Origin: a virus
DNA: 49,797 nt
Reading direction: 5' to 3' (one strand)
IMG/VR virus record: IMGVR_UViG_3300009163_000052
Location: 1-49,797 of that record
The notes beneath the pieces are model-generated. The model saw only the letters and a program-made list of their open reading frames with translations, had not been told where the DNA came from and made no database searches. This document shows positions 30,849-39,736 of this stretch, one piece after another; within the stretch, counting starts at the first letter, position 1; each line of letters opens with the position of its first letter. Position numbers and translations under genes: made by a program.

Positions 30849-30877
30849 AAAGATTCTCCTTCTAGGGCTTCGTGTTA

Positions 30878-30885
30878 TTATTTAC
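30878..30885 (-). promoter_or_regulatory. late-promoter-like octamer GTAAATAA
   Basis: On the minus strand this reads TATGTAAATAATAACACG, 30 bases upstream of the acidic core gene and downstream of the gp67-like stop. It would give a second entry point for the 68-like/21/22/23 part of the head operon. Confidence 0.4.
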
Positions 30886-30951
30886 ATAATGTGACACTAT
30901 TACACCGTCTTAGCCCTCAAAACGGCGTATTTTTCTAAATTTGTAGGAATT

Positions 30952-31185
30952 TTAGACCGCAGGAGCCGCGGCGGCAGCTTTGTACTGCTTTTGGATGTCT
31001 TTGATGCGGTCCTGTTGTTCAAACTTACGGACGTCGTGCATCATACGCAGACGATTGATCTGCATGAGTGTTAACTTGGTTTTACGCAAGTCTTTGAGCT
31101 TTAGGGTAGTCTGATCTTCCTTAGCATCATAGTAGCCGTCTTGGTACTTTTCGTTGCCAGGGCCAAACATTTCGTTTAGTATCAT
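30952..31185 (-). CDS. small basic protein in gp67 position
   Basis: A 77-residue, basic, largely helical protein: LKDLRKTKLTLMQINRLRMMHDVRKFEQQDRIKDIQKQ, with an alanine-rich tail. It sits immediately after the portal gene, the place of T4 gene 67 (prohead core PIP). T4 gp67 is acidic, so similarity is positional only; the extremely acidic following gene may take that role and this one may pair with it. A TAAATA-type string at 31190-31197 is too close to the start codon to be confident of promoter use. Confidence 0.5.
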   Translation of the reverse strand: MILNEMFGPGNEKYQDGYYDAKEDQTTLKLKDLRKTKLTLMQINRLRMMHDVRKFEQQDRIKDIQKQYKAAAAAPAV

Positions 31186-31206
31186 AACTCTATTTACCCA
31201 ATTTTA

Positions 31207-37728: not shown

Positions 37729-38553
37729 ATGAGCGACAATCCACTAAAGGCCTACTTTCGTAGACCAGAAGTCTATACACAACTACCCGGTGGCGGCGCT
37801 TTTTGGCCAGAGGGCACCATTGAGATTCCAGTCAGCGGAGAACTAGCAGTGTACCCTATGACTGCCGCAGATGAAATCAGTCTACGCACACCAGATGCAT
37901 TGATGAACGGACATGCCATTGTTAGCCTGCTGGAAAGTTGTATTCCCAGCATCAAGGACGCTTGGCAAACACCCTTGTCTGACATTGATGCACTGTTGAT
38001 TGCATCACGCATTGCCAGTGTAGGTGCTGACCTAGAGCTCAGTACCAAATGCCCCAACTGCGATCACAGCAATGAATTTATTGTGGACCTGCGTACTCGA
38101 CTAGATTTGATTCAACCTGGTTCATGGCATGAGCCTGTTGAAATTCGTGATCTTACATTTCACTTTAGACCCTTGACCTTCAAGCAAAGCAACGATTTAA
38201 ACAATCGTATCTATGCCGCACAACGCACAATGCAACAGATACAAGGCATTGAAGATGAAGATCAAAAAGAACAAGTGAACAAGAGCATCCTGGACAACGT
38301 CTCACAGATCAACTCAGACACATTGATTTGTTCTATCTCTGCCATTGAAGTAGCCGGCAACACTGTGCGTGATCCTGATCACATACGTGAGTTCATTGAC
38401 AACTGCGATCACAAGTTATCCTCTGCCATCAAGAAGGCCTTTGATGATCTACAGAAAAGCACCAAAGCTGAAGATGTTCACTTGGAATGTGAGGAATGCA
38501 GTTACAAGTTCAAAGTTCCGTTCTCACTGGATTACGGAAGTTTTTTCGTCTAA
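37729..38553 (+). CDS. gp26: gp26-type baseplate/tail chaperone, zinc-binding paralogue
   Basis: A 274-residue paralogue of the preceding gene. Two CxxC pairs, C108/C111 (CPNC) and C254/C257 (CEEC), form a probable zinc site absent in the first copy. The end of the gene reads Gly-Ser-Phe-Phe-Val-stop over GGAAGT TTT TTC GTC TAA and contains the slippery heptamer T TTT TTC at 38541-38547. A -1 shift there would replace the last residue and stop by a 77-residue extension (38547-38777). Position next to the tape measure and this layout recall the lambda G/GT tail chaperones. The usual family name is baseplate hub gp26; which role applies here is open. Confidence 0.8.
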   Translation: MSDNPLKAYFRRPEVYTQLPGGGAFWPEGTIEIPVSGELAVYPMTAADEISLRTPDALMNGHAIVSLLESCIPSIKDAWQTPLSDIDALLIASRIASVGADLELSTKCPNCDHSNEFIVDLRTRLDLIQPGSWHEPVEIRDLTFHFRPLTFKQSNDLNNRIYAAQRTMQQIQGIEDEDQKEQVNKSILDNVSQINSDTLICSISAIEVAGNTVRDPDHIREFIDNCDHKLSSAIKKAFDDLQKSTKAEDVHLECEECSYKFKVPFSLDYGSFFV

Positions 38554-38590
38554 GGCTCTTGAACCTGGACGCCGATAGAGTCCAAGAGCT
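38541..38590 (+). promoter_or_regulatory. candidate -1 programmed frameshift signal
   Basis: Heptamer T TTT TTC (38541-38547) in the X XXY YYZ register of the zinc-binding gp26-type gene, a 6-base spacer (38548-38553, which includes the zero-frame stop TAA), then a stem: GGCTCTTG (38554-38561) pairs with CAAGAGCT (38583-38590) over 8 bp including one G-U. Loop 21 bases. This is the standard slippery site + spacer + stimulatory stem arrangement. Confidence 0.6.
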
Positions 38591-38777
38591 GTTAAAGACC
38601 ATGGAAAAAGAAGTGGCGAATATCAAAAGTGATCTGCTCAAGATGACTTGGTACATGCGTGGTGGACTCAGCTACGAAGAAGCTATGAACCTCAGTCAAA
38701 GCGAAAGAAGTATTGTTGGTGACATCATCAAAGAGAATTTAGAAACAACTAAAAAATCAAGACTTCCTTTTTTCTAA
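38547..38777 (+). CDS. -1 frame extension, tail-chaperone-like C-terminal part
   Basis: Open frame -1 to the zinc-binding gp26-type gene. Read after a shift at 38541-38547 it gives RLRLLNLDADRVQELLKTM, then KMTWYMRGGLSYEEAMNLSQ and a KENLETTKK tail ending LPFF, about 77 residues. An aromatic W-Y followed by a helix and a charged helix is usual in tail-assembly chaperone partners. The same frame is open back to an ATG at 38496, wholly inside the upstream gene; an independent start could be ATG 38601 (59 residues), but its Shine-Dalgarno is weak. I therefore favour expression as a fusion, with independent translation as the alternative. Confidence 0.6.
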   Translation, partial: RLRLLNLDADRVQELLKTMEKEVANIKSDLLKMTWYMRGGLSYEEAMNLSQSERSIVGDIIKENLETTKKSRLPFF

Positions 38778-38801
38778 GCAACTTTTATTACTGTCCTTCT
38801 A

Positions 38802-38820
38802 AGACTTACTGCGTAAGTCT
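38802..38820. other. perfect 8-bp hairpin AGACTTAC/GTAAGTCT
   Basis: Inverted repeat with loop TGC (GCA on the minus strand), just after the stop of the frameshift extension. It could belong to the plus-strand transcript end together with 38821-38852, or to the candidate minus-strand RNA. Confidence 0.6.
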
Positions 38821-38852
38821 GTTTCTTTCGCTTACGCTCAGAAACTTTTTTT
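38821..38852 (+). terminator. probable factor-independent terminator of the gp26-type operon
   Basis: GTTTCT/AGAAAC stem (38821-38826 with 38840-38845) with a 14-base loop region, followed by seven T (38846-38852), 44 bases after the operon stop. The stem is short; the adjoining 8-bp hairpin 38802-38820 may add stability. Confidence 0.5.
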
Positions 38853-39223
38853 CTATCTTTAACTATAACGCTTGTGCGATAGTTTCATCTAGATTCAGTC
38901 ACAATTCACCCGTTGCCGGGCAAATCATGACAAGAGCTTCATCTGAGTTCTTTTATCACACTGTGTTAAATGAGATTGCTGTTACAGCACGGAAGCGGTT
39001 AGCCGGTACTCCCTACTCAAGATTCGATCCAACGGATGCTATGTAATGCCCTAACAAGCGAACTTTACATAACCCTAGGTTGCTTTTTCTCAGAGCCTAG
39101 ATCTTTTGACACCTTAGGTTAGTGTCTTTCCCTGCAACACCCAAGCGTCTGACGGCACAGCACAACCTGTACAACCTCAATGGGAGTCGAGCAGCCTCGA
39201 CCAAACAACGTTGCTATGATTAA

Positions 39224-39736
39224 TTACTTGCAGAGGTCTTTGACGACGTCTGCGTTTAGTTCAAAAAATGTATCAAAGTCCATGAAGATCCATGAGCCTT
39301 GTTTAACAGTTTCGTACTGTACTGACTTTTCTATTTTGATTTGTGGGAGATGTTTGACTTCAAATGCTACAAAGGTGCCTTTGCGATTAAACTTCATGAA
39401 CAGTAGATTAAAGTCTCCAGGATCTGCAACGTCCATGCATTGCTCAATCCATGATTCTAAAATTTTAACTTGTCCTTGAAATAACTGATGAAACGGAAAG
39501 TCTTTATATGATTTACATTCGGCATTTAACTTTGGGAAACTTTGTCCTGGAACTATGTCGCCCTTGAAGTTGCGAATTTGGCCTTCGTGGAGAAATTGTT
39601 TACGAGCCTGGTTTTTGCCACCCACATAAGCACCCGAACCTGGAGCTCGGATAAACTTTTCGCCGTAGAGATTGGTTAAAAAGTCAGCAACCTGACGTTC
39701 GTAACTGTTTCCTTTGGCTTTACTGGGACTGGGCAT
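39224..39736 (-). CDS. PD-(D/E)XK nuclease, Holliday-junction-resolvase-like
   Basis: A 170-residue nuclease fold of the Hjc/VRR-like kind. Likely catalytic residues: Glu13 (GNSYERQVADFL), Asp60 (NFKGDIV), Glu73 and Lys75 (NAECKSYKDF). APGSGAYVGGKNQ and FHQLFQGQVK are also typical of this group. It may resolve recombination junctions or trim DNA during packaging, complementing gp46/gp47 upstream. T4 uses endonuclease VII (gp49) for that job; none is recognised here. No strong Shine-Dalgarno is visible, but MPSPSKAKGN is the expected family start. It lies 78 bases downstream of the radical SAM gene. Confidence 0.75.
   Translation of the reverse strand: MPSPSKAKGNSYERQVADFLTNLYGEKFIRAPGSGAYVGGKNQARKQFLHEGQIRNFKGDIVPGQSFPKLNAECKSYKDFPFHQLFQGQVKILESWIEQCMDVADPGDFNLLFMKFNRKGTFVAFEVKHLPQIKIEKSVQYETVKQGSWIFMDFDTFFELNADVVKDLCK

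Follow-up and report, generated by a model that had tools for sequence, protein, structure and literature searches.

A conserved structured RNA family with a matched pair of 7-nucleotide words in jumbo phages and many uncultured phages

The 49,797-base IMG/VR virus record IMGVR_UViG_3300009163_000052, the whole of which is termed the window herein, holds a 446-nucleotide (nt) gap between two convergent genes, at positions 38778-39223, that near certainly encodes a conserved structured non-coding RNA of ~400 nt on the minus strand. The element belongs, again near certainly, to a previously unnamed family of structured RNAs outside Rfam 15. Within each copy a 7-nt word in the RNA (R1) is matched by an identical word a short distance downstream (R2), and we tentatively propose that the two may meet as RNA and DNA. 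A structured phage RNA on the minus strand had been suggested by an initial annotation made without database searches; that suggestion is borne out by homologues in most of the related loci collected, by strong covariation, by an excess of G-U pairs on the minus strand, and by the lack of a matching Rfam family. The initial annotation did not note the R1/R2 pair, the pseudoknot, or the several copies in cultured jumbo phages.

Conservation of the non-coding gap

The gap is bounded exactly by two stop codons, those of a plus-strand open reading frame (ORF) at 38496-38777 and a minus-strand ORF at 39224-39736, and thus lies, as initially described, in non-coding sequence between convergent genes. 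No other part of the window runs as long without an ORF of at least 90 amino acids; the runner-up is 30849-31206 (358 nt).

Related loci were gathered by way of the proteins on either side of the gap and of a DNA pattern taken from the element's core (at least 120 stretches), and were then searched with an iterated nhmmer profile. The profile placed the element in 106 of the 113 loci of a first set; in a later set of 233 sequences, the window among them, 221 had a homologue, and 133 of these were full length. Removal of copies scoring below 180 bits and of those at least 92% alike left 87 of the 133 for the alignment. BLAST of the window and of a related locus (L227) against the named-phage collection gave no matches, and the core pattern found seven stretches in bacterial genome contigs, none of them a true copy (two had a 9-bit profile match, none higher).

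No long reading frame was common to the homologues. The longest stop-free run over six frames had a median of 65 and a maximum of 122 amino acids among the 87, and the indels between homologues had lengths that were not multiples of three. The region is therefore unlike decayed coding sequence, in agreement with the first impression of it.

Fold, covariation, and strand

Read as RNA, the minus strand folded 4.0 standard deviations below dinucleotide shuffles (0 of 100 as good), whereas the plus strand folded only 1.4 standard deviations below them (10 of 100 as good). The minus strand does carry the two GNRA loops reported initially: GCAA (38916-38913) caps a 15-bp hairpin (38931-38917/38912-38898), and GUAA occupies 38835-38832. 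A lack of covariation among homologous phages was named by the initial annotation as a refutation of its proposal; when tested, covariation was strong, and the proposal was not refuted. The column pair 39002/39029, for example, was Watson-Crick in 87 of 87 copies and 38825/38841 in 60 of 60.

An RNA tolerates G-U pairs, which are seen as A-C on the complement, and the two can be counted to read the strand. Helices P1-P11 (Table 1), read on the minus strand in the 87 copies, held 860 G-U and 37 A-C cells; these helices were picked on the minus strand, the cells are not independent events, and fixed G-U columns in P6 weigh heavily in the count. Seventy column pairs selected without regard to strand, each showing at least two Watson-Crick types (some reflect chance or phylogeny), gave 220 G-U versus 96 A-C on the minus strand. 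The 3' hairpins P13-P15, by comparison, held 32 G-U versus 29 A-C, and the eight core pairs of P13 were Watson-Crick in 626 cells, G-U in 12, A-C in 13, and other in 43. Read on the plus strand, 72 of 84 homologues have a T-rich stretch after the hairpin; read on the RNA strand, 22 of 84 have one after the last hairpin. P14 is probably in large part the terminator of the convergent gene, so some of the hairpins first counted as RNA may serve the other strand. P14 and P15 are strand-symmetric, and P14 is mostly terminator-like.

P7 and P8 form a pseudoknot; P9 and P11, which are weaker, also cross other helices. A search for the pseudoknot domain that allowed each helix at most a single mismatch recovered it from all 22 cultured-phage copies and from 166 of 221 metagenomic ones (188 of 243 overall), the 55 misses including truncated and divergent copies. 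An alignment of the domain comprised 61 of 85 distinct sequences (22 cultured and 39 metagenomic). Here 91.2% of cells were paired versus 82.0% in shuffles, and 60 cells had changed on both sides versus 15.1, neither value being reached in 500 shuffles; because selection by complementarity favours pairing, the changes on both sides weigh more than the paired percentage. Slid controls were 39-59% paired. For P7, 99.0% of cells were paired across the 61 sequences, and P8 read GGGAG/CUUCC in the window, mostly GGGGG/CCUCC among metagenomic copies, and GAGAG/CUUUC or ACUGG/CCAGU in cultured phages.

A pair of matched 7-mers

On the RNA strand the layout is ACTC-N7 (R1) followed, mostly 50-61 nt further on, by TCT-N7 (R2), with the two words flanking hairpin P13. 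R1 and R2 were identical in 86 or 87 of 87 copies at each of the seven columns, whereas the base composition of the columns would give 51%, 54%, and 72% identity for the most variable three, and the three preceding bases were CTC at R1 and TCT at R2 in all 87. These alignment columns provide the unbiased count. A regular expression, in which identity was demanded, recovered the pair in 182 of 221 loci; among the other 39, 7 were cut by a contig end, 1 matched with a different flank, 3 were one base off, and 28, mostly weak and divergent profile hits, had none. The words themselves ranged from AGATGAT to GTCGGAA, ATAGCAG, and AACAAAA.

Cultured phages carried the pair in 21 of 22 copies (none was found in one RaK2 copy), with a spacing of 49-87 nt and with left flanks that differed, AATCT or AAAYCC at R2 versus CTC or CAG at R1. 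R2 in the flank context AAYCCCGTCAA occurs in phage 121Q at its four elements only. Words changed between copies of one genome: the second copy of phage Munch has CGTCAG twice and the fourth GTGTCA twice, the other three having CGTCAA, and the fourth copy of GAP32 has CCGTCAG twice where its other copies have TCGTCAG. At 0.093 per locus within 400 nt, versus 0.115 after shuffling, the reverse complement of the 7-mer was not enriched near the RNA. Judged from the alignments, the match is a cis constraint kept inside each copy, because the word varies among copies yet matches within them and has no complement in the RNA. To our knowledge, no described RNA is required to share an arbitrary word with its adjoining sequence.

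Two further candidates were tried and dropped. For a shared trans target, neither a locus's own word nor its complement was enriched in flanks of ~10 kb, and the whole 121Q genome held CGTCAAG 23 times (19.8 expected) and CTTGACG 8 times (10.9 expected); a single shared trans partner is rejected because copies within one genome carry different words, each matched within its copy. A second repeat in the 5' part of the RNA had no match in correctly read cases such as L227 (the P5 word could not be located in most loci).

A hairpin and T run directly follow R1 in several copies (e.g., L264, L265, L337, L338, L342, and L343). Sequence after R2 was AT-richer than the RNA body, 0.70 versus 0.52 in 84 metagenomic copies and 0.78 versus 0.61 in 21 cultured-phage copies, a modest difference.

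Copies in cultured jumbo phages

By tblastn, the flanking nuclease has relatives in the cultured jumbo phages SCTP-2, PA5oct, and Phosso, and the flanking baseplate protein in Phosso, XaC1, Atu_ph07, Munch, RaK2, and 121Q. The gap at the corresponding place in 121Q is unannotated, and its sequence as query matched 41 named phage records, most with four or five places per genome; Sharanji, a 121Q-type phage, is recorded with K12 MG1655 as its host. There were four copies in 121Q, five each in XaC1, Munch, and GAP32, and at least three in RaK2, all on one strand among the matches listed. Munch (P = 0.0016) and GAP32 (P = 0.0012) had copies spaced more evenly than expected by chance on a circular genome, as, less clearly, did XaC1 (P = 0.023) and 121Q (P = 0.027); these values are a guide only, since the four phages are not independent of one another and circularity was assumed for each genome. 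Upstream of every one of the 22 cultured-phage copies, on the RNA strand, stands TATAAT or TATACT, preceded, as judged by eye, by a TGRRAC-like box. An endonuclease VII gene neighbours the RNA in 121Q, GAP32, CBB, and XaC1.

The metagenomic covariance model gave a weak match in RaK2 (E = 0.26), at the same place and on the same strand as the BLAST hit, and no match in the regions fetched from other cultured phages. A scripted search for the pseudoknot domain in PA5oct, Phosso, SCTP-2, and Atu_ph07 returned nothing convincing. PA5oct has a repeated non-coding stretch (L273, L274, and L275, at 76k, 13k, and 246k), each copy behind a TTGACA-type promoter-like sequence and one adjoining the baseplate gene, which is possibly a distant relative or an analogue. 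Sinorhizobium phage Phosso has an unannotated 1-kb gap at the same place (L236:4987-6000), adjoining a ribonuclease HI gene.

Searches for known RNAs

The Rfam covariance-model search proposed by the initial annotation matched no family. With cmscan, nothing in the window reached the gathering score, and the sole match in 38560-39400 at E ≤ 5 was Xist_exon4, at 13 bits (cut-off 100). Neither GOLLD, ROOL, nor OLE matched at gathering score in the window, in 12 related loci, or in 13 cultured-phage loci, consistent with the early statement that the RNA could not be assigned to the GOLLD/ROOL type; two Rfam hits in related loci fall outside the element. ARAGORN found no tRNA or tmRNA gene in the window. 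The literature covered, including the parts consulted of PMC12286853, PMC2864571, PMC3016281, and PMC13282480, as well as PMC6892783, held no report of this RNA, subscription papers and preprints being mostly outside that scope.

GOLLD, ROOL, and OLE are long, pseudoknotted, and non-coding, and GOLLD and ROOL occur in phages or prophages with a function given as unknown in the portion of PMC12286853 consulted. The RNA described here is likewise long, pseudoknotted, and non-coding, and phage-borne like GOLLD and ROOL, but it differs from all three in its length of ~400 nt, its up to five co-oriented copies per genome, its identical R1 and R2, and its lack of an Rfam match. No parallel to such a pair is known to us in GOLLD, ROOL, or OLE.

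Features and genomic surroundings

Coordinates of the RNA and of its neighbours in the window are given in Table 1.

Table 1 Features of the element and of adjoining genes in the window
Feature	Positions	Strand	Basis or remark
RNA body (P1-P11 and R1)	38938..39216, read 39216 to 38938	-	nhmmer profile, alignment; G-U 860 vs A-C 37
P1, hairpin	39187..39204 (39204-39201/39190-39187)	-	326 cells: 247 Watson-Crick, 52 G-U, 1 A-C, 26 other
P2, enclosing P3	39140..39184 (39184-39181/39143-39140)	-	348 cells: 343 Watson-Crick, 5 G-U
P3, inside P2	39176-39175/39152-39151 and 39172-39168/39163-39159	-	covariation
P4, hairpin	39109..39125	-	covariation
P5, around conserved GAAAAAG loop	39076..39099 (39099-39096/39079-39076)	-	39099/39076 Watson-Crick 84/87: UA 36, GC 30, CG 11, AU 7
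P6, long hairpin	39037..39074	-	covariation
P7, first pseudoknot helix	38998..39033 (39033-39028/39003-38998)	-	39029/39002 Watson-Crick 87/87, four pair types
P8, second pseudoknot helix, nested in P9	38991..39013 (39013-39009/38995-38991)	-	83.6% of cells paired in 61 sequences
P9 (weaker)	39019-39016/38974-38971	-	covariation
P10, hairpin	38978..38988	-	38986/38980 Watson-Crick 71/76, four pair types
P11 (weaker)	P6 loop paired with 38963-38960	-	covariation
R1, 7-mer AGATGAA after invariant CTC	38938..38944	-	identical to R2 at each of seven columns, 86 or 87/87
P13, hairpin separating R1 from R2; minus-strand loop GCAA	38898..38931	.	strand-symmetric
R2, 7-mer AGATGAA (minus strand) after invariant TCT	38884..38890	.	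AT-rich stretch follows in homologues
P14, hairpin, then T run on plus strand	38845-38821	.	strand-symmetric
P15, hairpin	38820-38802	.	strand-symmetric
PDDEXK_15 endonuclease gene, upstream of RNA	39224..39736	-	PF24608, 92 bits
T4-type baseplate protein gene, convergent	37729..38553	+	PF12322, 57.4 bits
Small convergent ORF abutting gap	38496..38777	+	no Pfam match

In 67 of 81 distinct loci the gene immediately upstream of the RNA encodes a nuclease (SegE-type GIY-YIG or PDDEXK); the upstream gene varies among loci. In the window's clade the RNA follows the stop of a same-strand gene at a median distance of 24 nt and, because that stop is so near, could be 3'-end-derived. Of 17 IMG/VR contigs scanned with the covariance model, 14 had one copy, G002 had two (the second weak), G015 had two weak ones, and G008 had none at E ≤ 1.

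Not every copy lies at the baseplate locus: in L226 the RNA adjoins a PrkA kinase gene (PF08298), and in L130/L138 it is surrounded by unrelated genes. In L120, L233, L166, L184, L041, and L011 it is flanked on either side by cargo genes from various unrelated families; by eye these are sulfotransferase-like, SGNH-like, and nucleosidase-like (two tested had no Pfam match), and with such varied cargo on both sides the edges of the RNA look like an insertion hot spot. One phage contig carries a Polynucleobacter-1 RNA (RF01718, 80.3 bits) near the element, at L136:6850-6992; Burkholderiales and fresh water are the listed sources of that RNA, which phages may carry. G001, the 347-kb contig of the window's clade behind locus L141, has 28 genes by ARAGORN, tRNAs and one tmRNA.

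Possible role of the element

We tentatively suggest that the R1 word of the folded RNA pairs with the template strand of the DNA at R2 and that the RNA thus helps DNA replication to start, a reading that we consider possible and place below an even chance. The template strand at R2 is the proposed partner because it is always complementary to R1 in cis. The different left flank of R2 would tell target from source, and a terminator after R1, as in some copies, would leave R2 in the DNA, ahead of the AT-rich stretch. With less assurance, the pairing might open or prime the AT-rich DNA just past R2. The element would then be an RNA-directed replication start of the R-loop type, as at T4 oriF or in ColE1, but with a dedicated folded RNA. 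It is rather doubtful that the scheme holds in full as a self-addressed element, in which a 7-nt RNA word pairs with a matching downstream DNA word to start replication, about five co-oriented and nearly evenly spaced units serve each jumbo phage, and any word works if both copies agree; such freedom would explain why words drift between phages and between copies.

Contact between RNA and DNA is suggested by the cis match together with the terminators after R1 in several cultured-phage copies, the AT-rich stretch after R2, and the strand symmetry around R2. Unlike the 5' helices, the 3' hairpins show no surplus of G-U pairs, so the surroundings of R2 are not under RNA-type constraint. A replication role is suggested by the promoter-like sequence, the AT-rich stretch, the even, co-oriented spacing, and a neighbourhood like that of T4 oriF. 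The RNA has a T4_baseplate (gp26/gp51-type) gene on one side and a nuclease gene, SegE-like (PF19835) or PDDEXK, on the other; oriF sits between segE and gene 51, adjoining genes 25 and 26.

The R-loop origins oriF and oriG of T4 combine a promoter, a transcript, and a downstream A+T-rich stretch, and need no specific sequence for the R-loop, according to the part of PMC3016281 consulted. The element resembles them in its promoter-like sequence (cultured copies, not the metagenomic clade) and its segE and gene 26/51-type neighbours, and perhaps in the modestly AT-rich stretch past R2. The ColE1 RNA II primer is a folded RNA that acts on its own downstream DNA, and the RNA described here is of similar length and would be placed to do the same. 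ColE1, though, is a plasmid, and no matching 7-mer pair is known to us in RNA II. In IS110 bridge RNAs and transposon OMEGA RNAs a segment matches DNA of the RNA's own element, as R1 matches R2; here, by contrast, the word is short, the element is syntenic rather than mobile, and no transposase or effector was found adjoining.

Several observations weigh against a replication start. No run of five T's follows R1 in 70 of 84 metagenomic copies, and because the run is present in only 14, the RNA of that clade may continue through and include R2. The same clade has mostly a single copy per contig (14 of 17) and no shared promoter before the RNA, TATAAT standing in 4 of the 42 copies (of 87) for which an anchor was available. 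A hybrid of 7 bp is short, T4 R-loops manage without a specific sequence (PMC3016281, in part), gene orientations differ from those of the otherwise similar oriF neighbourhood, the AT excess past R2 is modest, and cumulative GC skew has no turn at the copies in 121Q or G001. Replication is, moreover, a role that we infer from sequence.

A rival explanation is a stand-alone ornate RNA acting in trans, as a cage, a scaffold, or a ribosome-directed molecule in the manner of GOLLD or ROOL, with R1 and R2 both in the RNA and their equality serving an internal or oligomeric contact. Its complex fold with a pseudoknot, its occurrence here in viral records only, the promoter-like sequence in cultured phages, its several copies, and the lack of a T run between R1 and R2 in most metagenomic copies would all fit. 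Equal sequences cannot pair, however, and there is neither a complement inside the RNA nor a covarying third column; the 3' hairpins do not share the G-U excess of the body, and no Rfam match links the RNA to GOLLD, ROOL, or OLE, so that we regard this explanation as possible but, likewise, below an even chance. The copy-specific identity of the two words within invariant, differing flanks, the GC-rich strand-symmetric hairpin beside R2, and the nuclease genes directly upstream in most loci (endonuclease VII in four cultured phages) would also suit an RNA-guided nicking or recombination element, with R1 as guide and R2 as its own DNA target, cut or joined by a protein as with IS110 bridge RNA or OMEGA RNA. 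We think this unlikely. Seven nucleotides are few for a guide, SegE-like GIY-YIG, PDDEXK, and endonuclease VII enzymes are not known to be RNA-guided, no transposase or RNA-guided effector was identified beside the RNA (the whole genomes were not scanned), and copies occupy rather similar relative slots in related phages rather than moving freely.

Dimeric proteins typically bind two equal sites whose spacing is nearly constant, and R1 and R2 might thus be sites of one such phage protein, the RNA being a protein scaffold or, given the short distance to the preceding stop in the metagenomic clade, a regulatory 3' untranslated region. The words, however, include ones as unrelated as GTCGGAA, ATAGCAG, and AACAAAA and vary among copies of one genome while still matching in pairs, and the upstream gene differs among loci; this makes the dimer explanation improbable. 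Chance structure or a decaying gene, for which nothing was found in favour, has a negligible probability in view of the covariation, the pseudoknot, the strand test, and the spread over the metagenomic loci and the 41 named phage records.

Members of the RNA family occur in jumbo phages that infect enterobacteria or Xanthomonas and in many phages not yet cultured. The elements would provide four or five mappable candidate replication sites per genome in phages that grow on laboratory Escherichia coli. Should their role be another, they would still represent a large conserved RNA with a cis-matched-word logic that is directly testable.
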